DNA from: Epilithonimonas mollis
GTDB lineage: Bacteria; Bacteroidota; Bacteroidia; Flavobacteriales; Weeksellaceae
Assembly: GCF_900142325.1 (NCBI RefSeq)
Contig: NZ_FRAM01000002.1
Span: 372,001-436,000 of the forward strand
Direction: 5' to 3'
DNA length: 64,000 bases
Shown: piece by piece, positions 29,254-41,011 of the stretch
Position numbering within the stretch: the stretch's first letter is position 1
Layout of the letters: each line of letters begins with the position of its first letter
The notes under the pieces: model-generated
What the model saw: the letters and a program-made list of their open reading frames with translations, nothing else
Told to the model about the DNA's origin: nothing
Database searches by the model: none
Position numbers and translations under genes: made by a program

Positions 29254-29946
29254 ATGAATCAAAATTTTGACGATTACCAAATCGTTTACGAAGACAATCA
29301 TATGATGGTCATCAACAAAAAAGCCGGACAGCTAGTTCAGGGTGATAAAACCGGTGATTTGTCTTTGCTGGAATTGATAAAAGATTTCATCAAAAAAAGA
29401 GATGGCAAACCGGGGAATGTTTTCTTAGGGCTGGTTCACAGGATCGACAGGCCAACTTCTGGATTAGTGATTTATGCCAAAACTTCCAAAGCTTTATCAA
29501 GGCTGACAGTTATGGTAAAAGACCGTGAAGTCAGGAAAACCTATTGGGCAATTGTCGGAAAAGCGATGATTCCTCAATCTCAAAGACTTGTTCATTATCT
29601 TCAGAAAAATGAGAAAACGAATAAAGCCACCGTTTTTATAAAACCAACCGAAAAAGCTAAAGAATCTATTCTTAATTATCAAATAATCAAAACTTTGGAC
29701 AATTATCAATTGCTGGAGATTGATTTAGAAACGGGTCGTCATCATCAGATCCGTGCGCAACTTGCGAAAATCGGCATTCCCATCAAAGGCGATCTGAAAT
29801 ACGGCGCACCACGTTCTAACCAAGATGGCGGCATTTCACTGCACGCCAGAAAACTGGAGTTTGAGCATCCAGTTACAAAAGAAAATATTAAGATTATTGC
29901 TCCTGTTCCGCAGAATGATGCGATCTGGAAAGCTTGTGAAGCATAA
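29254..29946 (+). CDS. RluA-family RNA pseudouridine synthase
   Basis: Contains the RluA catalytic motif as HRIDRPTSGLVIYAKT with the active Asp. KTYWAIVGK and ETGRHHQIRAQLAKIGIPIKGDLKYGAP are also conserved in the family. The protein has 230 residues and lacks an N-terminal S4 domain, so it resembles the short RluA/TruC-type enzymes. Its target position in rRNA or tRNA cannot be named from sequence. It follows a small hypothetical gene and ends in a terminator shared with the convergent barrel gene. Confidence 0.92.
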   Translation: MNQNFDDYQIVYEDNHMMVINKKAGQLVQGDKTGDLSLLELIKDFIKKRDGKPGNVFLGLVHRIDRPTSGLVIYAKTSKALSRLTVMVKDREVRKTYWAIVGKAMIPQSQRLVHYLQKNEKTNKATVFIKPTEKAKESILNYQIIKTLDNYQLLEIDLETGRHHQIRAQLAKIGIPIKGDLKYGAPRSNQDGGISLHARKLEFEHPVTKENIKIIAPVPQNDAIWKACEA

Positions 29947-29976
29947 AAAATCCGAAAATATTTCTTTCGGATTTTT
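29946..29976. terminator. Bidirectional terminator
   Basis: A 12-bp stem AAAAATCCGAAA / TTTCGGATTTTT with a 7-base loop, between two convergent genes. Confidence 0.88.
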
Positions 29977-29980
29977 GATT

Positions 29981-32125
29981 TTATAATGTAGAAGTGTCTT
30001 CTTTCTTTTCCTGATTCAGCAAAATGGGAGCTTCTTTTGCCAATTTGTTTTTGGTCGGGATTTTATAACTGAAAGAAAGTCCGAATGTTCTTGTGTCATT
30101 CTTGTTCCGGATGTAAACGCTGGGAAACGCATTTGTTGTTCTCAGATTGGTTTCATTGGTGTTGAAAACATCGTTGGCAAACAAAGTCAGCGTCATTCTA
30201 TCTTTATCGAATTTCCTTGATAAAGATAGATTCAAAGTATTGTAAAACGATTTGTTTGGATAGAAAAAGAACTCATTTCCTTTGGTTAAGTAAGTGTAAT
30301 TAGCATTGAACTTAACCTTGTAAGGCAAAATGAATTGTCCTGAGACATTATAAGTCCAATAACCTTTTGGATTGATGATCTGATCGATTTGTTGCAGCTG
30401 GTAGGAACCATACAGGAAGATAAAACTCACCTGATCGGGATTCATATCCATTTTCATAATGTCTTTGAACGGTGTGTTGAAAATCGCCAATGGGATAGGG
30501 AATCCGATATTGAAATTATGCGTTTTCATATGGTCAAGATTGTCGCTGGTCTGGAAAATAGCATCGCCTCTTCTTTCCACGATCTGCACGACCTGATTTT
30601 TGGCGTTAGTAAAATTATAGCCGATAAAAGCATAGTTCAACGCACTTAATTTAACCTCAAAATTATCATAAATAGTTGGTTGTAAATTTGGATTGCCGGT
30701 AAAGTCGATATTATTTCCACCATATCTTGTATTATTTGGATTTAAGTTAGCAACATTCGGCAAGGTGATTTTCTTATTATAATTGATGTTGAAGAAAGCA
30801 ACTTTAGGAATGATGTTGTACTGAATACTTGCATTCGGGAACACTTTGAATTTTTCAAACGGTCGTAAATTATCGTAAGTTCCCTCTTCAAAATTTAAAC
30901 TTGTTCCATTGATGTTATAATATTCTCCGCGAAGTCCCAAAACGAATTCCATTTTACCTTTAGTTGCACTAGCTTCGGAATAGAAGGCTGTTGTTTTACT
31001 TTTATAATCCAAATTCTTGATACTATAATTATCTGCAGAAAATTCCAATTGGTCGTAGTAGGCACCTAAACTTATTTTTCCTTCGTCCAGAACTTTGATA
31101 GGCTGAGCATAATCAATCCTGAAGTTGTAAACATCCTGATTGGAACCGTTTTTGCCGACATTCTTAATTTGCGAAAATACTGGAAAAATCTCCTGATTGG
31201 CTTGCTCAAAACTATTATTGAAATTGGAATAAGAACCTTTAAATTCTAACTTTTTATTTTTATCAGCAAATTTTTTCTGATAAGTTGCAGTCACTTCATT
31301 TCTTGTATTGCCCTGATCAATTTTGTCTTTATCAATTGATTCTTTTCCCTTGTCCAGAGAATAACCATCCACATAACGGTCAGAAGATCCGAAAGAAAGG
31401 TTATAATTCAAAAGCAATCGGTCTTGCCCAATGTCAAATGTAAACGCACTTCTCAAATATTGATTTCTGTTAATATTGTCATTGTACAATCTGGAAATCT
31501 CATCGATTGTAGATTTTGTTTCGCTTTCGTTGTAAGATTGCCCTACATTTAACTGCCATCCGAACCATTTGTTTTTGGAATTCAGCGTCAGACTATTATT
31601 GAATTTACTTCTGTAATGATCATAATTGCTGAATCGGTAACCGCCGGCATAAGTGGCAGACAAATAAGATTTTGCATTTCTGCTGGTGATGATATTGATG
31701 ATTGCACCGCCAGAAGTAGCGGGAAACTCTGCGCCAGGCTGCGTAATGATTTCGATTCTTTCTATGCTGTTCGCAGGAAGTCCTTCCAGATATGTAGTCA
31801 GCTGCGTGCTGTAGATGTTCAGCGGTCGACCGTCCATATAAACATCCAGTGTTTTTCCCTGGTAAATCATTCCGGCCATTTCAGACACTACCAAACCAGG
31901 GATTTTTTGTAATCCTTCCAAAGTGTTGCCGGAGTTAAGATGCGGTTGCTCAGAAAAATCGTAGATCGTTCTGTCTGCTTTTTGTTCTACGGCTTTTTTA
32001 GTTTTGGTAATATTGACTGCTTCAATTTCTTTTTCCTTCGCATCGTCTTTTTTAGGGGTTTCCTGCGCAAAAGAGATTTGACTGAGAAACAAAGCAGATA
32101 TCGGAATAATAGATTTTAACTTCAT
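29981..32125 (-). CDS. Outer-membrane beta-barrel family protein (TonB-receptor-like), first of pair
   Basis: A signal peptide (MKLKSIIPISALFLSQISFAQ) precedes a plug domain (RTIYDFSEQPHLNSGNTLEG, IERIEIITQPGAEFPATSGG, AIINIITSR) and a large C-terminal barrel. The N-terminal carboxypeptidase-like domain and an obvious TonB box are lacking; this matches the OMP_b-brl_3 group of TonB-dependent-receptor-like proteins. The ligand is unknown. A paralogue lies 50 bases upstream in the same orientation and the pair is divergent from a LytS/LytTR operon. Confidence 0.88.
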   Translation of the reverse strand: MKLKSIIPISALFLSQISFAQETPKKDDAKEKEIEAVNITKTKKAVEQKADRTIYDFSEQPHLNSGNTLEGLQKIPGLVVSEMAGMIYQGKTLDVYMDGRPLNIYSTQLTTYLEGLPANSIERIEIITQPGAEFPATSGGAIINIITSRNAKSYLSATYAGGYRFSNYDHYRSKFNNSLTLNSKNKWFGWQLNVGQSYNESETKSTIDEISRLYNDNINRNQYLRSAFTFDIGQDRLLLNYNLSFGSSDRYVDGYSLDKGKESIDKDKIDQGNTRNEVTATYQKKFADKNKKLEFKGSYSNFNNSFEQANQEIFPVFSQIKNVGKNGSNQDVYNFRIDYAQPIKVLDEGKISLGAYYDQLEFSADNYSIKNLDYKSKTTAFYSEASATKGKMEFVLGLRGEYYNINGTSLNFEEGTYDNLRPFEKFKVFPNASIQYNIIPKVAFFNINYNKKITLPNVANLNPNNTRYGGNNIDFTGNPNLQPTIYDNFEVKLSALNYAFIGYNFTNAKNQVVQIVERRGDAIFQTSDNLDHMKTHNFNIGFPIPLAIFNTPFKDIMKMDMNPDQVSFIFLYGSYQLQQIDQIINPKGYWTYNVSGQFILPYKVKFNANYTYLTKGNEFFFYPNKSFYNTLNLSLSRKFDKDRMTLTLFANDVFNTNETNLRTTNAFPSVYIRNKNDTRTFGLSFSYKIPTKNKLAKEAPILLNQEKKEDTSTL

Positions 32126-32175
32126 AATTTAGTTTGTAATTTATTAGACTCAAAATCTGCTTGTTTGTTACATTA

Positions 32176-34275
32176 TTATTGTGCTCTGTCCTTTTCATCA
32201 AATTTTATATTCTTCTTATTGAATTTTTTATTATTCCCGAAAGTATAATTCAGGCTTATTCTCAAACTTCTGCCATCCCAATAGTTGTTGAAAAATTGAC
32301 TGTTGTCCTTATAATACATATCGCCGCGAAATCTCTGTGCAAAAATATTAGTTACTGTTGCATTGATTTGCAATTGTTTTTCCATCAGGGAAACTTTGAT
32401 TCCGGAAGTTAGATCCAGATAATTATGAAAATGAGAATTCACGTTATTGTTTGGCAAACTCTGATCATAATTCAGGAATAAAGCAACCGTCCTTTTTTTG
32501 TTCAGTATAAAAGTGTTGTTGATCGAGTAGCTTAAAGATTTTCCTCTCTGTGCTTCCGCTTCGATGCCGAAAACTTCCGAAGTTTGGATGGTTGCATTCA
32601 GAGTAAAAGTTGCTTCCCAGAATTTGAAGAAAGTATCGGTGTATGAAGCATTCATTCCGTAGAAATCGTTGTTGTAATAATTCAGATAACCGCCTGTTTG
32701 GGAAATTCCGTCCAGTGAGCCAATTTGTCCAAACGCATTTTTTAGTTTTAAATAATAAATGCTGGTGGAAAATTTATTGTCAAAAGTATAACCCAGTTCA
32801 TAATTACTGATGTAAGAAGGCGTCAGTAAAGGATTTCCGGAAGAATAGGAATACGGATTTTCATACCAGCGGAACGGATTCAGATTGCTCATGCTCGGGC
32901 GGTTGATTCTTCTGGAATATGAAAGGCTGAACACATTTTTCTCATTTTTGTAAGACACAAAAGCGGAAGGAAACCATTGTCCGTAATTGAAATTGTTCAC
33001 GGTGCTTTTTACAAAAGTATTTTCATATCGGATTCCGGCTTTCGTTTCCCAATGCTCACCGAAGTTCTTCGCAAAACTTCCGTAAACAGCGTAATTTTCT
33101 TCCTGATATCTGAACTGACTTCCTTTTTCTTCATCAATGATGTAGTGATTGTTTTCAAGATTCAGATATTTCAAATCTGCAGAATTTCTGAATTGATTAA
33201 ACTTTACGCCGGTTTCAATCGTTCCAAAAGAAAAAGGCAATTCCAAATCTGCCTGAACAGAGAAAATCTGTGGCTGTACTTTCGACAGGGTTTTCACATT
33301 CTGAACGGTATTTTCGGGAAGAGATACAGTTGAAAAATTCACTTCTGTATCATTAATGTTTTTAAAGAAATTTCCGGCGAAACTCAACTTTTTTCCGAGC
33401 GAATCCAACTTCAAATCATAGTAAGTACTGAAAGTATGCGTTGGTGATTTTTCCCTGTGAAAAGTGTTGGTGATCAGATTTGTTTCTTTTAAAGCTGAAC
33501 TTATATTTCTCGTTGTGTTCAAAATATTCATTCCGTTTTTGTCCCCACCATAAATATATTCTATCCCGATTTCAGAATTCTTATTGATTTTATAAGAAGC
33601 ATTCAAGCTCGGCGTCAAATCCCGCCACATATCTTTTCTTGTAGATTCGCTGTAGTTCCGGGATTCTCCAAGAATATTGTATCTTTCATTTGAACGTTTT
33701 GCACCTTCAATATAGCTTGTTTTTAGACTTAAACTAAATTTATCGGTTTGGTAATTCAGTGTGCCATTCGTGCTTCCGTTGTGGTAAGTTCGTTGCGTCA
33801 GTCCGGAGCTGATGTTTCCGCTGAATCCAAGATTCGGGTTTTTCTTAAGAATAATATTAATCAATCCACTGTTTCCCTGCGCTTCGTATTTAGACGGTGG
33901 ACTGGTAATTACTTCAATTTTCGAAATATTCTCTGAACGTATTGATTTCAGATAATTCAAAAGAGCAGCTCCGGAAAGATTCAGCATTCTGCCATTCAAC
34001 ATTACATTGACTGAGCTTTTTCCTATGATAGAAATCGTTCCCAGGTTTTCATCCACTTTCAGCATCGGAACGTTTGCCAATGTTTCGCCGGCGTCCATTC
34101 CTTGGGAAGCGATGGATGCATCGACATTAAAAATCAATCGGTCTGCTTTTCTTTCCAGCAGTTTTTTCTTAACTAAAATATTGACCTGCTCGATTTCTTT
34201 TAAACTGTCTTTTTGATTTTGAGAGAAAGTTGCTGTTGATAAGAGTGTTGCGATGAATAGATATTTTAGTTTCAT
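32176..34275 (-). CDS. Outer-membrane beta-barrel family protein (TonB-receptor-like), second of pair
   Basis: Same layout as its downstream neighbour: signal peptide MKLKYLFIATLLSTATFSQ, plug (RLIFNVDASIASQGMDAGE, ISKIEVITSPPSKYEAQGN, GLINIILKK) and a barrel of about 550 residues. The ATG giving MKLKYLF is chosen; an upstream alternative would put 14 residues before the signal peptide. TACTTTTG lies 28 bases before it. The two proteins share plug logic but have diverged strongly in the barrel, suggesting different ligands. Confidence 0.88.
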   Translation of the reverse strand: MKLKYLFIATLLSTATFSQNQKDSLKEIEQVNILVKKKLLERKADRLIFNVDASIASQGMDAGETLANVPMLKVDENLGTISIIGKSSVNVMLNGRMLNLSGAALLNYLKSIRSENISKIEVITSPPSKYEAQGNSGLINIILKKNPNLGFSGNISSGLTQRTYHNGSTNGTLNYQTDKFSLSLKTSYIEGAKRSNERYNILGESRNYSESTRKDMWRDLTPSLNASYKINKNSEIGIEYIYGGDKNGMNILNTTRNISSALKETNLITNTFHREKSPTHTFSTYYDLKLDSLGKKLSFAGNFFKNINDTEVNFSTVSLPENTVQNVKTLSKVQPQIFSVQADLELPFSFGTIETGVKFNQFRNSADLKYLNLENNHYIIDEEKGSQFRYQEENYAVYGSFAKNFGEHWETKAGIRYENTFVKSTVNNFNYGQWFPSAFVSYKNEKNVFSLSYSRRINRPSMSNLNPFRWYENPYSYSSGNPLLTPSYISNYELGYTFDNKFSTSIYYLKLKNAFGQIGSLDGISQTGGYLNYYNNDFYGMNASYTDTFFKFWEATFTLNATIQTSEVFGIEAEAQRGKSLSYSINNTFILNKKRTVALFLNYDQSLPNNNVNSHFHNYLDLTSGIKVSLMEKQLQINATVTNIFAQRFRGDMYYKDNSQFFNNYWDGRSLRISLNYTFGNNKKFNKKNIKFDEKDRAQ

Positions 34276-34302
34276 AATTTCTAATAGTTTAATTTCTTGG
34301 TA

Positions 34303-34310
34303 CAAAAGTA
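34303..34310 (-). promoter_or_regulatory. -7 box of the barrel gene pair
   Basis: TACTTTTG on the minus strand matches TAnnTTTG and leaves a leader of about 20 bases. It shares a 171-base spacer with the divergent signalling operon. Confidence 0.5.
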
Positions 34311-34434
34311 TTTTCAAACTAATTTTTATGAAATAGCATTTAGATTTGACCCAATTTTAATCCGACCAAAATATTTTCATCGGTAAAAAATCGAGGTTCA
34401 TAGAATTTGACAAGAATAATTGATGTGTACTTTC

Positions 34435-34442
34435 TATTTTTG
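34435..34442 (+). promoter_or_regulatory. -7 box of the lipoprotein/LytS/LytTR operon
   Basis: TATTTTTG four bases before the ATG; a TTTG at 34406-34409 is 25 bases upstream of it, rather far for a -33 element. Predicts a leaderless or nearly leaderless transcript. Confidence 0.5.
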
Positions 34443-34446
34443 AAGT

Positions 34447-34794
34447 ATGAAAGATTTAATAATCATAATGGTATCGTTGCTAATGTATTCCTGTATTGGA
34501 AAACATAGAGTGGATGTTTGGAAAACGATGACGATTGCTCCAGGAGACAGCATCGTTGTTGGTAAAATAAAAGCACCAGCGGTTTTGGAAATTAAAAACT
34601 TGTCGGATGAAAACTTATTGTTGGTTTCCCAACTGAAAATGCAAAAGCAGATTTTGGCGAGATCATCGTTTTCTTACAGATTGCCAAAAAAGAGTGGTTT
34701 GATATTGGAGAATCCAACTAAGAATCCGCTTTCAATTCATTTGCATTATTCTTCTAATAAACCGATTCCAATTAATCACAAACAACTACAATGA
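34447..34794 (+). CDS. Small lipoprotein heading a two-component operon
   Basis: A 115-residue protein not recognised by family. The N-terminus MKDLIIIMVSLLMYSCIG ends in a lipobox-like YSC, so it is probably a lipoprotein. The mature part is a compact beta-rich domain (KTMTIAPGDSIVVGKIKAPAV). Its stop overlaps the kinase start by four bases (ATGA), which ties it firmly to the kinase and suggests an accessory or sensory part; no such role has been shown. Confidence 0.72.
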   Translation: MKDLIIIMVSLLMYSCIGKHRVDVWKTMTIAPGDSIVVGKIKAPAVLEIKNLSDENLLLVSQLKMQKQILARSSFSYRLPKKSGLILENPTKNPLSIHLHYSSNKPIPINHKQLQ

Positions 34795-35801
34795 AAAAAC
34801 AACAGCTCTTATTTCTTCATATATTTTATTGGAGTATTTACATTTTAGGAACATTTATATTTCCTTATTTATTATTCGGAAAACAAGCTGATTATTTCAA
34901 AATAACCTTTGCTATTACAAGTTTTATATGTTTTTACATCAATTATTTTTTTGTCATTCCGAAGTTCTTTCATCTTCAAAATCTATCTAAGACACTGCTT
35001 GCTTTTCTCTTAAGTGTTTTTTGTTTTGTATTGATTCGCTATTTTGTAGAAGAGATTTTTTCACCTTATTTTTTTGGGATTAGAAATTACAATGAGAAAA
35101 CATCTTTGAGTTTTTATTTTTATGACAATATCTATTACAGCAGTACTACGATTTTTATAAGTACAGTTTTTTGCTTGTTTAAATTAATGTCCGACGCAGA
35201 AATTGAGAAAAGGCAACTTATAGAAGAGAAAAAGAACTCAGAACTTCAAGCTTTAAAAACCCAGATCAATCCGCATTTTATCTTTAATACTTTGAATAAT
35301 ATTTATTCTTTGGTTTATCAAAATTCCGAAAAAGCTTTGCCGGCAATTGAAGAATTAAGCCAATTGTTACGATACAGCACGAAAGATTTGGAGAAAGATT
35401 TTATTCCGTTAGAGAAAGAAATTGGTTACCTGGAAAGTTTGATAGAACTCGAAAAACTCAGAATCAAGAATCCGGAATTATTGATCATTAATAAAAAAAT
35501 CAACTTCCCGACTCTGAATATTTCACCGATGCTTTTGGTTCCGTTTGTGGAAAATGCATTCAAACACGGCGATTTTTCTGCGAAAGGTTTTACTTTAAAT
35601 ATTTCTGATGAAAGTCAAAGAATTCATTTTTATCTGCAAAATTTTAAGAAATCGAAATCAAAAGATTCTGTTTCAGGAATTGGAATCGGGAATGTGAAAA
35701 AGCGACTGGAAATTCTTTATCCGAACCAACATGAACTGAATATAACAGAAAGCGAAACCGATTTTACCGTAGATTTGAAGATTGATTTGAGAAATGGATA
35801 A
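34791..35801 (+). CDS. LytS-type sensor histidine kinase
   Basis: Four membrane helices in the first 130 residues with short loops, then a helix leading to the His_kinase (PF06580) box QINPHFIFNTLNNIYSL, with the phosphorylated His at about 162. A short ATPase domain follows (LLVPFVENAFKHG as N box, GIGIGNVKKRLEILY as G box). There is no large extracellular sensor domain, so sensing is by the membrane part or a partner such as the upstream lipoprotein. It overlaps the regulator gene by eight bases. Confidence 0.92.
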   Translation: MKKQQLLFLHIFYWSIYILGTFIFPYLLFGKQADYFKITFAITSFICFYINYFFVIPKFFHLQNLSKTLLAFLLSVFCFVLIRYFVEEIFSPYFFGIRNYNEKTSLSFYFYDNIYYSSTTIFISTVFCLFKLMSDAEIEKRQLIEEKKNSELQALKTQINPHFIFNTLNNIYSLVYQNSEKALPAIEELSQLLRYSTKDLEKDFIPLEKEIGYLESLIELEKLRIKNPELLIINKKINFPTLNISPMLLVPFVENAFKHGDFSAKGFTLNISDESQRIHFYLQNFKKSKSKDSVSGIGIGNVKKRLEILYPNQHELNITESETDFTVDLKIDLRNG

Positions 35802-36480
35802 AATAAGATGCATTGTTGTAGATGACGAACCGCTGGCGGTGTCCTTGCTGGGAAGTTACGTGGAAAAAATCCCTTTTATGAAACTGGTTTTTTCCACCGA
35901 AAACCCAATCGAAGCGATGGAATTTATCCAAAATAATGAGGCCGATTTGATTTTCCTCGATATCCAGATGCCCGAACTTTCAGGGATTAATTTTATGAAA
36001 ATCGTCGGCAACAAACTCAGATACATCCTCACAACGGCTTATGCAGAATATGCATTAGAAGGTTATGACCACAATGTGATCGATTATCTTCTGAAACCGA
36101 TTTCTTTCAGTAGATTCGAAAAAAGTACGCAAAAAGCTTTGGAAAGATTTACAGTAAATGAAACCAAAGAAAATACATATTTCTTCGTCAAATCTTCCGG
36201 GCATCAACATAAAATTATTTTTGATGAAATTCTTTTCGTAGAAAGCATTAAAGATTATGTCAATATCAAGACTGAAAATCAGGAATATATCGTTCTTGAC
36301 ACATTGAAATCGCTTGAAAATCAATTGCCGGATAATTTTGCCAGGGTTCATAAATCCTTCATTCTGAACCTCGAAAAAATCGAAAAAATTGATATTAAAA
36401 ATGTTTTCCTCAGTTCTGGAAGAGAAATTCCGATTGGTGAAACATATAAATCAGATTTCCTGCTGAAATTGAAAAAATAA
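35794..36480 (+). CDS. LytTR-family response regulator
   Basis: An N-terminal receiver domain with the acidic pair DDE, phosphoacceptor Asp56 in FLDIQMPE, and KPISFSRF with the conserved Lys. The C-terminal LytTR DNA-binding domain (about residues 130-228) has FVESIKDYVNIKT and FARVHKSFILNLEKI. It forms a pair with the overlapping kinase gene. The divergent outer-membrane barrel genes are plausible targets; no binding site could be identified with confidence. Confidence 0.93.
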   Translation: MDKIRCIVVDDEPLAVSLLGSYVEKIPFMKLVFSTENPIEAMEFIQNNEADLIFLDIQMPELSGINFMKIVGNKLRYILTTAYAEYALEGYDHNVIDYLLKPISFSRFEKSTQKALERFTVNETKENTYFFVKSSGHQHKIIFDEILFVESIKDYVNIKTENQEYIVLDTLKSLENQLPDNFARVHKSFILNLEKIEKIDIKNVFLSSGREIPIGETYKSDFLLKLKK

Positions 36481-36520
36481 CAACTGATATTAACAATATT
36501 CTAAATTTATGGCTTTCAAA

Positions 36521-36551
36521 TTGTAAAACAAACCAGAATATTGTAATTTTG
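36521..36551 (+). promoter_or_regulatory. Promoter of the ACP/ligase/SDR/acyltransferase cassette
   Basis: TTG followed after 20 bases by TAATTTTG, matching the Bacteroidota -33/-7 layout; the -7 box ends 18 bases before the ACP start codon. This gives the cassette its own promoter, separate from the two-component operon. Confidence 0.6.
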
Positions 36552-36569
36552 CATCACACAACACATAGG

Positions 36570-36800
36570 ATGCAGAAAAAATTATTGGCAATTATCAATT
36601 CTATTAAAAAGAATAAATTTGAAGAAGAGATTCCGGAAATCAGGCCGGAACAAAAACTTAGAGAAGATCTCAACTTCGATTCTTTTGATCTCGCAGAACT
36701 TACCGTAAAGATAGAGGAAGAATTTGGCGTCGATATTTTCGAAGATGGATTGGTAAATACAATTGACGAAATCTATACAAAACTTAAATGTTTTTCTTAA
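36570..36800 (+). CDS. Acyl carrier protein of a dedicated acyl-transfer cassette
   Basis: A 76-residue ACP with the phosphopantetheine site DLNFDSFDLAELTVKIEEE (Ser38) and the acidic helix after it. It differs from the fatty-acid AcpP pattern (DSLD) by Phe after the Ser, which suggests a dedicated carrier. The ATG giving MQKKLLAI is chosen over a TTG inside the promoter region. It overlaps the ligase gene by 13 bases. An AMP-forming ligase, a reductase and an acyltransferase follow, so the ACP probably carries the acyl group between them. Confidence 0.88.
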   Translation: MQKKLLAIINSIKKNKFEEEIPEIRPEQKLREDLNFDSFDLAELTVKIEEEFGVDIFEDGLVNTIDEIYTKLKCFS

Positions 36801-38002
36801 TCGATCAGAATTTTTCTTTGTCATACAAAGAGATTCTGCAAAAGATTAATTCCTCTGATTCTTACACAGATTGCTATATCTATCCGGATTTGAAGGCCTT
36901 TTTCCTCAACTGGATTTTGGCTTTGGTCAATGATAAAAATATTGCATTGATGGATTCTGATATTTCCGAAAAAGAAATCACATCCAACAATCTGCAGATT
37001 AATCAACTCATCAGTATTGATACTCCAAAACAATTTAATTCTGTTCGGGAGTTAATTGATTCGATCAGAAATTCACAATCAGAGATTACGCTTTTTACTT
37101 CCGGAACAACTGGATTTACGAGAAAATTCACGCATCCTTTGAAAAACCTGGTCAGAAAAATCAACGTTTCTGAAACAAGGAAAGATGATGTCTGGGCTTT
37201 TGCATTTAATCCGACGCACGTTGCCGGTGTTCAGGTCTTCTTCCAGGCGATTCTGAATCAGAATCTTTTGGTTAATGTTTTTCTGGCTCCGAAAGATTTT
37301 ATCATCGATTCTATCAAAAAATATAAAATCACGAATCTTTCTTCCACACCCACTTTTTACCGCTTGCTTTTACCTTTGAAAGAATCTTTTGATTCGGTTA
37401 CAAAAATCACCGTTGGTGGCGAGAAATCAGATTCTCACTTGATTTCTGAAATCGGAAAAGCGTTTCCGAATGCCAGAATCAACAATGTGTATGGTTCCAC
37501 GGAAACCGGACCTTTGTTTTCTTCTCAGAATGATGAATTTTTTGTTCAAGAAAAACATATTGGTCTAATAAAAGTTGTGGATGATGAATTGTACATTCAT
37601 AAAGATTTATTCGGACAAAATTCACAATTGAATTTGATTGATGGTTTCTACGCCACCGGCGATTTGATCGAGTGGATTGATGATGAACAAAGACGATTCA
37701 GATTTACATCCAGAAAAAATGAATTGATCAATGTGGGCGGTTATAAAGTGAATCCTTACGAAGTTGAAGATGAGCTGACGCAACATGAAAGTATCAGAAA
37801 CGTAAGGGTTTACGCAAAATCAAATGCTGTTTTGGGAAATATCATCTGTTGCGAAATAGAATTACATCCTGACACAGAATTGAAGGAAGAGGACGTTCGG
37901 TTTTTTCTTAATGGAAAGATTCAAAATTTCAAAATTCCAAGAAAAATTTCGTTTGTTGATAAAATAGAATTAACCAGAACCGGAAAAAAGAAAATAGTAT
38001 GA
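36788..38002 (+). CDS. AMP-forming acyl-ACP/CoA ligase
   Basis: ANL-superfamily adenylating enzyme of 404 residues. Core motifs are present: LFTSGTTGFTRKF (A3), NVYGSTETGPLFS (A5), YATGDLIEW (A7), FTSRKNELINVGGYKVNPYE (A8 hinge) and the catalytic Lys close to the C-terminus (RTGKKKIV, A10). It is shorter than typical acyl-CoA synthetases (about 500 residues), closer to the O-succinylbenzoate-CoA ligase size. The overlap with an ACP gene suggests it charges that ACP with a free acid. The acid is unknown. Confidence 0.88.
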   Translation: MFFLIDQNFSLSYKEILQKINSSDSYTDCYIYPDLKAFFLNWILALVNDKNIALMDSDISEKEITSNNLQINQLISIDTPKQFNSVRELIDSIRNSQSEITLFTSGTTGFTRKFTHPLKNLVRKINVSETRKDDVWAFAFNPTHVAGVQVFFQAILNQNLLVNVFLAPKDFIIDSIKKYKITNLSSTPTFYRLLLPLKESFDSVTKITVGGEKSDSHLISEIGKAFPNARINNVYGSTETGPLFSSQNDEFFVQEKHIGLIKVVDDELYIHKDLFGQNSQLNLIDGFYATGDLIEWIDDEQRRFRFTSRKNELINVGGYKVNPYEVEDELTQHESIRNVRVYAKSNAVLGNIICCEIELHPDTELKEEDVRFFLNGKIQNFKIPRKISFVDKIELTRTGKKKIV

Positions 38003-38721
38003 ATGTATTGATAACGGGCATTTCCAGAGGTGTTGGCTTGGAAGTCTGCCGATTGTTTCTGAAGAAAGGACACACAGTTTATGGTATCAGCAGAACAGAA
38101 TCGGAGGAACTGAAAACTTTGGAAAAACAATATCCGGAAGATCTTTTCTTCAAAACCTTCGATTTGTCAAATCCTGAAAATATCAGGCAGGAAATTTTTA
38201 AAGATTTTGTCAAAAATCAGATTCCGATACATGTGTTAATCAATAATGCGGCGATGGCTTATGACGATATTGTCACGAATCTCAATTATGAAGATTTGAA
38301 AACAATGTTTGATGTTAATCTTTATTCTCCGATGTTTCTGACGAAATATGCGATTAGAAATATGATTTACAACCGGGTTTCCGGAAGCATTATTCATATT
38401 TCGTCAATCAGTGCGCACACGGGTTACAAAGGTTTGTCGATGTATGCAGCTTCCAAAGGTGCTTTGCAGTCATTTTCCAAAAATATTTCGAGAGAATGGG
38501 GAGAAAGAGGCATCCGTTCCAACATTGTAGTTCCCGGTTATATGGAAACTGCGATGAATGTAAAACTAACACAGGATCACAAAAACCGAATTTTCAAAAG
38601 AACCGCACTGAAAAAAGAAACCGATATGCAGTCTGTGGCAGAAACTGTTTTGTTTCTGGCAGGTGAAAAGGCAAAATCAATTACAGGACAGGAGATTTTC
38701 GTGGATTCAGGAACTCTTTAA
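37999..38721 (+). CDS. Short-chain dehydrogenase/reductase, 3-oxoacyl-ACP reductase-like
   Basis: A classical SDR of 240 residues: cofactor loop TGISRGVG near residues 6-13, NNAA, the catalytic Ser in IIHISSIS and YAASK, then the PGYMET segment and the C-terminal ITGQEIFVDSGTL typical of FabG-like enzymes. Its start overlaps the ligase stop by four bases (ATGA). Reduction of a 3-oxoacyl group on the cassette ACP is the simplest reading, giving a 3-hydroxyacyl group; a sugar substrate cannot be excluded. Confidence 0.88.
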   Translation: MNVLITGISRGVGLEVCRLFLKKGHTVYGISRTESEELKTLEKQYPEDLFFKTFDLSNPENIRQEIFKDFVKNQIPIHVLINNAAMAYDDIVTNLNYEDLKTMFDVNLYSPMFLTKYAIRNMIYNRVSGSIIHISSISAHTGYKGLSMYAASKGALQSFSKNISREWGERGIRSNIVVPGYMETAMNVKLTQDHKNRIFKRTALKKETDMQSVAETVLFLAGEKAKSITGQEIFVDSGTL

Positions 38722-38733
38722 ATAACAAAAACT

Positions 38734-39309
38734 ATGATCAATCTAATTTACAAAGCACTGAATATCATTCCAAAAGCAATTGCAAAAATTGAAAAGCTTT
38801 ATTCTTACAGCATTCTCAATTCGCATTCAGGTGTAAGACTTCACCCTGATTTGAAAATCGGGAAATCGACCACTTTTGAGTTGGATGATGATGCCAAATT
38901 TGAAATTGGAAAAAATGTGATTTGGAGAGATCATAACGCTATAAGAATCAGAAAAGGGGGAACTTTGATTTTCGGTGATAACGTTGATCTCAGTCATTAC
39001 ATCTCTATCAACTGTCTGGATAAAATCGAACTGGGCGATGATACCTGCATCGCAGAAGGCTGCAAATTTTACGATCATGACCACGCCTTCGATACAAAAC
39101 CGGAATACATCTGGCATAAAACCAAATTCAATACAGCACCAATCATCATCGGGAAAAATGTAAAAATCTACAGCAATGTTACGGTTCTGAAAGGTGTAAC
39201 CATTGGTGACAACTGTATCATTGGCGCCAACTGTGTCATTTCCAGAAATGTTCCGCCTAATTCCATCATCTTCGGAAAACACGAGTTGATGAGGTTGCCT
39301 TTGATGTAA
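38734..39309 (+). CDS. Left-handed beta-helix (hexapeptide) acyltransferase
   Basis: A 191-residue hexapeptide-repeat protein: imperfect [LIV]GxxxxI repeats are clear in ELGDDTCIAEGCKF and VTIGDNCIIGANCVISRNVP. The central loop has YDHDHAFDTKPEY with the probable catalytic His, as in WcaF/NeuD-type O- and N-acyltransferases. No signal peptide or membrane helix. As last gene of the cassette it probably moves the acyl group from ACP (or CoA) to a sugar. It ends directly before repeat copy B. Confidence 0.85.
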   Translation: MINLIYKALNIIPKAIAKIEKLYSYSILNSHSGVRLHPDLKIGKSTTFELDDDAKFEIGKNVIWRDHNAIRIRKGGTLIFGDNVDLSHYISINCLDKIELGDDTCIAEGCKFYDHDHAFDTKPEYIWHKTKFNTAPIIIGKNVKIYSNVTVLKGVTIGDNCIIGANCVISRNVPPNSIIFGKHELMRLPLM

Positions 39310-39317
39310 TTTATTTG

Positions 39318-39444
39318 GGTAGCTATTTCCGCTTTCCGTTCCCAAACCTAACAAGTGGTTTGACGAAGGCAGTCTTTTTTGCGCATGTTTTGTCTTTAAA
39401 GGTCTTTTTCAGAAAGCAAAAAAGATTTCCATTCATGTCGGGCT
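39318..39444 (+). repeat. Interspersed palindromic element, copy B (3' of acyltransferase)
   Basis: A more diverged copy, beginning eight bases after the acyltransferase stop in that gene's orientation. It keeps GGTAGCTATTTCCGCTTTCCG at the left and AAAAAAGATTTCCATTC..GTCGGGCT at the right; about 30 extra bases lie in the left arm. The inner stem CTTTTTTGC / GCAAAAAAG pairs with bases differing from copies A and C. Confidence 0.65.
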
Positions 39445-39553
39445 GCGAGTGATTGAACGTTTAGAAAACACTTTATATTTTAAACTTAAAAAATTTAAAG
39501 TAAAAAATTTGCAAAGCCGTCTTATTCGTATGGAGTCGCTATCTTTACAGCCA

Positions 39554-40105
39554 ATGGCCGAAAAAAAATCTGTATCTATTACGGAAGTCGTGAAAAACTA
39601 CGGCTCCCAACTCTTGCGCTTTATCAATTCTAAAGTGGCAAAGACGGAAGATGCGGAAGATATTCTACAGGAAGTTTGGTTTCAGACCAGCCGATTGACC
39701 AATCTTAACGAATTGGAAAACGTTGGAGCCTGGTTATACTCGGTTACAAGGAACAAAATTATTGATAGCTATCGAAAAAAGAAAACGGAATCTCTGGAAG
39801 ATTTCGTTTATCAGGACGAAGATGGTGAACTGAATGTAAAGGATATTCTTTTGGCCGATGACAGCAATAATCCGGAAATCGCGATGTTCAAAGATTTATT
39901 CTGGCAGGAACTGATGAAAGCTCTGGACGAGTTGCCGGAAAAACAAAAACGGGTGTACGTTCAAAACGAACTGGAAGATAAAACCTTGCAGGAAATTGCT
40001 GACGAAGAGGGCGAAAACATAAAAACAATTATCAGCAGAAAGTCTTATGCAGTGAAACATCTGCGCAAAAGTCTGAGAAAGCTTTATGATGATTTAAATG
40101 ATTAA
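39554..40105 (+). CDS. RNA polymerase sigma factor, ECF type
   Basis: Sigma-70 region 2 (EDAEDILQEVWFQTSRLTNL, AWLYSVTRNKIIDSYRKKK) and region 4 (LDELPEKQKRVYVQNELEDK, LQEIADEEGENIKTIISRKS). The start MAEKKSVSITEVVKNYG is preferred; an in-frame ATG 24 bases upstream is possible. The length of 183 residues is normal. Eleven bases later comes a small two-helix membrane protein that may act as its anti-sigma; no standard anti-sigma domain is visible in it. Confidence 0.9.
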   Translation: MAEKKSVSITEVVKNYGSQLLRFINSKVAKTEDAEDILQEVWFQTSRLTNLNELENVGAWLYSVTRNKIIDSYRKKKTESLEDFVYQDEDGELNVKDILLADDSNNPEIAMFKDLFWQELMKALDELPEKQKRVYVQNELEDKTLQEIADEEGENIKTIISRKSYAVKHLRKSLRKLYDDLND

Positions 40106-40116
40106 TATTTAAGAAA

Positions 40117-40497
40117 ATGAAAAGAAATAATAAAAAATTTTGGTTAGCTATTCCTTGCATAATTGCAGCAGTGGGATTATTTATTTGGTTTTTCCAGTGG
40201 CTTTGGAATAGTATCTTGCCAGATGTTTTAGGTGTAAAATTGATTAGTTACTGGCAATCATTAGGGATTTTGGTTATATCAAAAATATTATTCGTCGGGT
40301 TGGCCAATGCAAAAGAAAAATTCAAAAACCGGAATAATTTCAGAGGTCCGGATCATATGAAAGAAAACTGGAAAAAGAAATTCGAAACACAGTTCTGCGC
40401 AAGCGAAGAAGAGCGTGAAAAGTTCAAAGAAATGTGGAAACAAAGATTTGAATCTAAATTTTGCAGACAGGATATGGACGATGAAAATAGTAAATAA
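40117..40497 (+). CDS. Small membrane protein next to an ECF sigma factor, duplicated W-F-C motif
   Basis: A 126-residue protein with two membrane helices (about residues 10-34 and 46-62) and a charged C-terminal tail with two copies of a short motif: ENWKKKFETQFC and EMWKQRFESKFC. The paired aromatic and Cys positions suggest a metal or redox site. It is 11 bases after the sigma factor gene, so a regulatory link is likely. No family recognised. Confidence 0.72.
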   Translation: MKRNNKKFWLAIPCIIAAVGLFIWFFQWLWNSILPDVLGVKLISYWQSLGILVISKILFVGLANAKEKFKNRNNFRGPDHMKENWKKKFETQFCASEEEREKFKEMWKQRFESKFCRQDMDDENSK

Positions 40498-40537
40498 AGA
40501 CATTTCTCCTGCGAATCCTATATTTCATTTTTTATTC

Positions 40538-40545
40538 TAAATTTG
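40538..40545 (+). promoter_or_regulatory. -7 box of the YCII-like gene
   Basis: TAAATTTG 16 bases before the ATG, matching TAnnTTTG. No strong -33 was seen. Confidence 0.45.
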
Positions 40546-40561
40546 GAAGAAACTTAAACAA

Positions 40562-41011
40562 ATGAAATCACTGTTTACAATCCTTTCTTTATGCCTGTTT
40601 TCATTATCTCATGCTCAAAAAGGATTCGACCAAAAATTGGCAGATTCTCTCGGTGCAGACCAATATGGGATGAAGTCTTATTATCTTGTGATTCTTAAAA
40701 AAGGAAAAGCAGAAATAACCGATAAGGCCAAGAAATCGGAACTGATGAAAGGCCATATGGATAATATCAGCAAACTGGCAAAAGATGGCAAACTGATTGT
40801 TGCCGGGCCAATGTTAGAAAAAAATCCAAATGACTATAGTGGTATTTTCATTCTTGATGCGAAAACCAAAGAAGAAGCGGAAAGGCTGGTTTTGACTGAC
40901 CCTTCTGTAAAAGCAGGGATCTTCGAAACCGAGATTTATAAATGGTATGGCTCTGCTGCGCTTCCGCTTTATTTAAAATCGCACGATAAACTGACCAGAG
41001 TCCATTTTTAA
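40562..41011 (+). CDS. Exported YciI-like (YCII) protein
   Basis: A signal peptide (MKSLFTILSLCLFSLSHAQ) precedes a YCII fold of about 95 residues (YYLVILKKGK, HMDNISKLAKDGKLIVAGPM, DYSGIFILDAKTKEEAERLV). The family His-Asp pair appears as KGHMDNI. YCII proteins are usually cytoplasmic; a secreted form is a known variant in Bacteroidota. The activity is unknown. The gene is monocistronic by its position. Confidence 0.82.
   Translation: MKSLFTILSLCLFSLSHAQKGFDQKLADSLGADQYGMKSYYLVILKKGKAEITDKAKKSELMKGHMDNISKLAKDGKLIVAGPMLEKNPNDYSGIFILDAKTKEEAERLVLTDPSVKAGIFETEIYKWYGSAALPLYLKSHDKLTRVHF

Follow-up and report, generated by a model that had tools for sequence, protein, structure and literature searches.

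In the viosamine island of Pseudomonas syringae pv. tabaci, the genes vioA, vioB, vioT, vioR, vioS, vioM and acp give 3-hydroxybutanoyl-viosamine, and deletion of vioR removes the modified viosamine (PMC3927599). As the authors also mention dTDP-N-acetoacetylviosamine, reduction may follow transfer in this system. The wfpC-wfpG set of Flavobacterium psychrophilum comprises an acyl carrier protein (ACP) specific for the O-polysaccharide (O-PS), a ketoreductase and an acyltransferase, with a dihydroxyhexanoyl group on an amino sugar as the predicted product (PMC6519341). FdhC, QdhC and QhbA are 3-hydroxybutanoyl transferases of Hafnia, E. coli and Acinetobacter glycans, QhbA being predicted for acetyl or 3-hydroxybutyryl (PMC4869667, PMC3628348). 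Here, we analysed a four-gene set of Epilithonimonas mollis, which lies in a 64,000-nucleotide stretch (hereafter the window; NZ_FRAM01000002.1, positions 372,001 to 436,000) on contig 5 (C5) of a 3.7-Mb genome (G000). It encodes an ACP, an adenosine monophosphate (AMP)-forming acyl-acid ligase, a short-chain dehydrogenase/reductase (SDR) and a hexapeptide acyltransferase. We consider it probable that the set is a self-contained acyl-supply and transfer operon that acylates a surface-polysaccharide sugar made elsewhere in the genome.

Like the viosamine island, the operon combines a dedicated ACP and a 3-oxoacyl-ACP reductase-like SDR (there VioR) with an acyltransferase. However, the island has a ketosynthase III (VioS) as its predicted acyl source, in place of which the operon carries an AMP-ligase, and it holds aminotransferase and glycosyltransferase genes, whereas the operon has no sugar genes nearby. 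Among nine scanned neighbours (29254-41008), we found no polysaccharide genes, in agreement with an earlier note on this DNA that no sugar gene is adjacent; men genes and ketosynthases were likewise absent from these neighbours, and the operon itself contains no ketosynthase. The operon also follows the ACP, ketoreductase and acyltransferase logic of the wfp set, but the parallel drawn by the earlier note is a loose one. The wfp set has two predicted ketosynthases, a PglD-type transferase and a place inside the O-PS cluster, with no ligase named in the passages considered (PMC6519341), whereas the operon has no ketosynthases beside its ACP and lies outside such a cluster. FdhC, QdhC and QhbA serve the hydroxyacyl decoration of deoxyamino sugars that we propose for the operon, but their genes lie inside O or K loci, and no dedicated ACP or ligase is named for them in the passages considered. 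Although the operon shares the logic of the viosamine and wfp sets, its predicted gene content assigns it to neither type, because a ligase replaces the ketosynthases and the operon stands alone. We recognized no described case of a ligase-fed module among the literature matches listed, and as most subscription journals lay outside this coverage, its absence from the literature is unproven.

The four genes form one tight array on the forward strand (36570-39309). From the coordinates, the ACP and ligase genes overlap by 13 bp and the ligase and SDR genes by 4 bp, and a 12-bp gap separates the SDR and hexapeptide genes. In 14 relatives, the first overlap is 13 bp (6/14) or 1 bp (8/14), the second is 4 bp in 13 (L055 has an 81-bp gap instead), and the gap is 5-13 bp in all. 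The promoter (36521-36551, forward strand) consists of a TTG at 36521-36523, a 20-base spacer and the box at 36544-36551 (TAATTTTG in the feature list, TANNTTTG in the comparison of copies). We take this to be the Bacteroidota -7 box. Comparison of 14 copies (the window, 12 genus genomes and L008; a 15th copy, in G153, was left out) placed a counterpart of the box 23-27 bp before the ACP ATG in 14/14, all of which are related, and a TTG 46-50 bp before it in 11/14. The box is kept in these copies although much of the promoter spacer varies. The likeliest ACP start is ATG 36570 rather than TTG 36549 of the open reading frame list, which falls inside the box; 36521, where the earlier note began, is the upstream promoter TTG. 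The earlier reading of four overlapping or nearly touching genes as a single operon with its own promoter is confirmed.

The ACP (76 amino acids, 36570-36800) matches PP-binding (PF00550) with 27.9 bits against a cut-off of 20.8 and has Ser38 in LNFDSFDLAEL, the serine context LNFDSFDLAELTV being identical in 14/14 relatives. It is one of two PP-binding matches in the genome at E <= 0.001, which upholds the earlier description of a dedicated ACP with Ser38. The ligase (404 amino acids, 36788-38002) scores 66.4 bits with AMP-binding (PF00501) and 43.7 bits with AMP-binding_C (PF13193), both above cut-off, and its TSGTTG, YGSTE and TGD motifs and C-terminal Lys are those expected of an active ANL enzyme. 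Its AlphaFold2 model (pLDDT 87.8) matches MenE, 4CL, DltA and other ANL enzymes in structure. In profile comparisons with the PDB, amino-acid-activating domains rank behind the best matches, which are the ligases for coronafacate, o-succinylbenzoate, oxalate and 2,3-dihydroxybenzoate, so the substrate is more likely a carboxylic acid than an amino acid. DltA-like amino-acid activation was rejected for the same reason, though DltA and nonribosomal peptide synthetase (NRPS) domains match too. In MenE, the counterpart of the HVAG segment of the ligase (hiaG in the profile) is HISG, which likewise speaks for a carboxylic acid; the Asp that NRPS domains use for amino acids presumably maps onto this segment. 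With the MenE model TIGR01923, the ligase reaches 94.0 against a cut-off of 330.15 and is thus not assigned to MenE. A menaquinone or lipid pathway, which the earlier note had weighed as the contrary outcome, was rejected because the ligase lies far below this cut-off and no such genes are among the nine scanned neighbours; nor was a constant association with such pathways seen among the homologous cores described below.

The SDR (240 amino acids, 37999-38721) is FabG-like (adh_short_C2, 163.9 bits; motifs TGISRGVG and YAASK) and predicted to resemble 3-oxoacyl-ACP reductases. A ligase, a carrier and a FabG-like SDR in overlapping genes suggest loading and reduction of a 3-oxo acid. The fourth protein (191 amino acids, 38734-39309; Hexapep, 56.8 bits) is a WbbJ-like hexapeptide acyltransferase of the left-handed beta-helix type. 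It has a YDHDH motif with His115 and His117, and D114, H115 and H117 are invariant in 29 aligned sequences. WbbJ is its best NCBIfam model (84.8 bits, cut-off 243) and its WcaF family score is 51.6 (cut-off 192), so that it belongs to the Hexapep superfamily but to neither named model. The earlier label of a NeuD-like transferase did not hold, as the protein has no PglD_N domain and scores 32.8 with NeuD_NnaD against a cut-off of 160.8, outside the NeuD/PglD/VioB group. Its homologues (35-44% identity) lie in polysaccharide loci of 16/22 genus genomes, including one in its own genome (G000:C5:202575-203084). The WbbJ-like nature of the last enzyme and its homologues in polysaccharide loci lead us to regard an acylated sugar as the product.

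In the mechanism we propose, the AMP-ligase would activate a short carboxylic acid as acyl-AMP and load it onto the dedicated ACP rather than onto coenzyme A (CoA). Our best guess for the acid is a 3-oxo acid such as acetoacetate. The SDR would then reduce the 3-oxo to a 3-hydroxy group, either on the carrier or after transfer, and the WbbJ-like enzyme may pass the ACP-bound acyl group on to a sugar, at a hydroxyl or an amino position of a nucleotide sugar or lipid-linked glycan. A surface polysaccharide would thereby gain an optional decoration, its sugars being made by genes elsewhere, such as those of the main polysaccharide locus.

The ligase profile was run over 395 order, 395 phylum and 395 class genomes and a single protein over 296 family genomes; these sets overlap, and profile searches scored the top four candidates per genome. 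Outside the genus, ligase relatives above 300 bits were found in five genomes, two from the same family (G007 and G057), two from a different family of the order (G314 and G341) and one from a different family of the phylum (G656), and the search of the 395 class genomes returned the own genome alone at 1e-60. ACP, ligase and SDR genes occur in the same order in 5/5 of these genomes (loci L044, L045, L165, L166 and L167, respectively), with 37-47% identity for the ligase and 53-63% for the SDR, and their ACPs have the signature S(L/F)DLAELTV in common. An acyltransferase-like gene adjoins this core in four (G007, G314, G341 and G656).

The settings of the five cores are two polysaccharide loci with amino-sugar genes, one with an aminotransferase, one short contig and one free-standing core; genes without a score were named by eye. 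The G007 locus contains a flippase, glycosyltransferases, a PseB-like dehydratase and two aminotransferases (one scored, 169.4 bits with the PseC model), and a NeuD-type acyltransferase (141.4 bits, just below the cut-off of 160.8) directly precedes the ACP. In G314, FdtA (178.4 bits) borders the core on one side and a hexapeptide acyltransferase (Hexapep, 93.6 bits) on the other, the latter followed by a DegT aminotransferase (361.5 bits) and a flippase, which we take to be the layout of the dTDP-3-acylamino-sugar pathway. In the polysaccharide locus of G341, an aminotransferase and a hexapeptide protein (40.1 bits) stand directly before the ACP. The G656 core is free-standing, and its SDR is immediately followed by a 257-amino-acid protein with a weak resemblance to WecD (26.7 bits, cut-off 195.1). 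The short contig with the G057 core (5446 bp) stops 316 bp past the SDR, and a GINT1_N-domain protein (127.1 bits) precedes its ACP. Relatives of the set thus do occur in amino-sugar loci, as the earlier note had said. Its further question, whether the block always travels alone, is answered in the affirmative within the genus (14/14 copies with both flanks) and for G656, but not for the polysaccharide loci L044, L165 and L166.

Overall, these loci point to the core as a ligase-fed module for hydroxyacyl-ACP supply with an exchangeable last enzyme. We tentatively extend this, at slightly less than even odds, to a model in which a constant ACP-ligase-SDR core, with no ketosynthase in its gene set, recruits a free acid and works with acyltransferases that differ between bacteria. 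The Epilithonimonas version would stand apart from the polysaccharide locus, have an acyltransferase and a promoter of its own and decorate a common acceptor as an optional and repeatedly deleted trait. If true, the hydroxyacyl groups on bacterial surface sugars can come from a dedicated ligase and carrier instead of synthesis of the fatty-acid type, and structures and strain variation would be missed when polysaccharide loci alone are read. The small complete set is also a convenient system for studying sugar acylation that depends on a carrier.

More distant ligase-SDR sets were seen beside flagellin genes (L168, no ACP listed) and beside NeuB-like genes (L169 and L173, both with an ACP), in a reading that left out L170, L171 and part of L172. 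In L168 (G863), the ligase-SDR set and an unclassified 256-amino-acid protein stand directly before several flagellin genes, and this is likely a set for flagellin-glycan acylation. Proteins of about 257 amino acids that lie beside ligase genes at L167:8140-8913 and L168:8308-9078 have no Pfam match, one being weakly WecD-like, and possibly form an acyltransferase family, not yet described, that goes with such modules. A second, distantly related module in the order ACP-SDR-ligase-hexapeptide (L046-L052) occurs in other genera of the family, mostly among glycosyltransferase genes; five aligned ligases of this type are 24-28% identical.

In the own genome, roughly 185-215 kb separate the operon from the main polysaccharide locus, which spans about C5:193,000-224,000. 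By eye, this locus contains numerous glycosyltransferases, genes of the RmlA/RmlB type and a pair for ABC-type export. Among its scored members are a NeuD-type acyltransferase (173.7 bits, cut-off 160.8) and, beside it, a DegT aminotransferase that reaches 261 bits with the DesI model against a cut-off of 650. A FabH-type ketosynthase III (L204:1800-2750; 286.5 bits, cut-off 249) adjoins another hexapeptide gene of this locus. These two genes occupy a place similar to that of the distant ACP-SDR-ligase-hexapeptide module in the other genera.

Several observations weigh against the acylation of a surface sugar by the operon. The ligase could act with CoA, the SDR stays below the equivalog cut-off of its best NCBIfam model (3oxo_ACP_reduc, 176.1 bits against 297.75), and the closest named models of the hexapeptide enzyme are acetyltransferases. 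Foldseek matched the AlphaFold2 model of the latter (mean pLDDT 77.8) to no structure at E <= 0.001, and the model was not used. In the four outside cores with readable flanks, the adjoining acyltransferase differs from the hexapeptide protein of the operon. An acceptor gene was not found either: 0/58 polysaccharide-locus families track the operon across 12 carriers and 8 non-carriers. The lowest uncorrected p was 0.049, for two families absent from carriers. These 20 loci, several of them partial, were chosen around ketosynthase, DegT or hexapeptide matches, with G115 and G138 (short contigs) and G153 left out. The DegT aminotransferase was rejected as acceptor maker, being present in 7/14 carriers and 3/9 non-carriers, and the FdtA ketoisomerase was not found in the own genome. 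The lack of a tracking family is compatible with a decorated sugar that all strains share, or with acceptor genes at another place, but by itself does not support the glycan reading.

Two functions on one transcript are an unlikely alternative, in which the core makes hydroxyacyl-ACP for an N-acyltransferase of the polysaccharide locus (for example, NeuD-type) and the hexapeptide enzyme is an O-acetyltransferase using acetyl-CoA. The NeuD-type gene of the own locus adjoins the DegT aminotransferase, WbbJ-like enzymes are annotated as O-acetyltransferases, and the core and this hexapeptide gene are not found together outside the genus. However, the DegT gene occurs in only half of the carriers, and in all copies examined the core is followed by the hexapeptide gene (14/14 complete ones; the 15th is cut by the contig end), which also has the lowest dN/dS (ratio of non-synonymous to synonymous rates) of three genes (0.030).

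Quite improbable, too, is an acceptor other than a glycan, so that the product would be a small molecule or lipid carrying the acyl group (siderophore-like, a signal or a pigment). In petrobactin synthesis, the short AMP-ligase AsbC loads dihydroxybenzoate onto the stand-alone carrier protein AsbD, much as we propose for the operon, but the acid is an aryl acid, siderophore synthetases take part and there is no SDR or hexapeptide enzyme. The operon ligase matches PRK08308 (414 amino acids; 65.7 bits, cut-off 513), a model that we take to cover AsbC, and the ACP weakly matches AsbD (21.5 bits, cut-off 100). The operon also is not beside sugar genes, and no polysaccharide-locus family tracks it. 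Against such a product, the nine neighbours include no condensing or siderophore synthase gene, and outside the genus the core lies in polysaccharide loci in 3/5 and beside an acyltransferase-like gene in 4/5 cases. Very unlikely, finally, is a split viosamine-type module in which the SDR is the partner of the polysaccharide-locus ketosynthase III and the ligase does no more than recycle free acid: the own locus does hold this FabH-type gene, and the viosamine island pairs a ketosynthase III with ACP, SDR and acyltransferase (PMC3927599), but the ketosynthase, rejected as a partner, adjoins another hexapeptide gene and does not track the operon, with close copies (69% or more) in 13/14 carriers and 8/9 non-carriers.

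Within the genus, the operon is present in 14/23 Epilithonimonas genomes, the window genome included, and is thus not a chance arrangement. The type strains of E. arachidiradicis and E. tenax belong to the carriers. Its SDR is at least 86% identical in these 14, and the best SDRs of the other nine reach about 31-34%. The operon is flanked by the LytTR and sigma genes in 14/14 copies with both flanks (those of the window, of L008 and of 12 genus genomes); the 15th copy (G153, L128) ends at a contig edge. The sigma gene is present in 23/23 genomes, as a fragment only in G153. Among the non-carriers, LytTR and sigma genes are adjacent, 50 to 192 bp apart, in G101, G135, G095 and G147; in G119, G115 and G068 the regulator is absent too and an outer-membrane protein gene adjoins the sigma gene; and G087 and G106 lack the whole block. 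The 192-bp spacer of G095 (L123), aligned to its sister G078, keeps the promoter region and the ACP ATG with about five codons before homology ends, and we read it as a deletion scar, giving at least one scarred deletion of the operon. No remnant was found in the three other empty sites (G101, G135 and G147), although G135, too, has a sister with the operon (G132). In a midpoint-rooted tree of proteins of the window (up to six gene families, support 60 to 100, G153 left out), carriers stand on both sides of the root and non-carriers at five places among them. This pattern, in a small and linked data set, fits an ancestral operon lost about five times, and the operon has probably been lost several times in the genus.

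The ligase, SDR and hexapeptide genes are under purifying selection, with median dN/dS of 0.067 (34/91 pairs), 0.046 (62/91) and 0.030 (25/91); the ACP gave no value. The flanking sigma and LytTR regulator genes gave 0.037 (87/91) and 0.065 (50/78). These values come from pairs with dS below 1.5 among 14 sequences per gene (13 for the regulator), with synonymous sites near saturation.

The upstream flank of the operon is a LytTR response regulator (35794-36480), and the downstream flank is a sigma-70-type factor, with its coding region taken from 39530. The LytTR regulator (window 34791-36480) is missing in 5/9 non-carriers, with no match at 1e-70 (L120, L121, L124, L125 and L127). As an obligatory partner it was rejected, since it is damaged in the carrier G123 (L010), where only residues 94-226 match and none reaches 1e-70. 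The nine scanned neighbours include outer-membrane beta-barrels, a His_kinase/LytTR pair and the sigma-70-type factor, and two have no Pfam match. The nearest named relatives at the operon are Epilithonimonas, with E. arachidiradicis 90% identical over the ligase.

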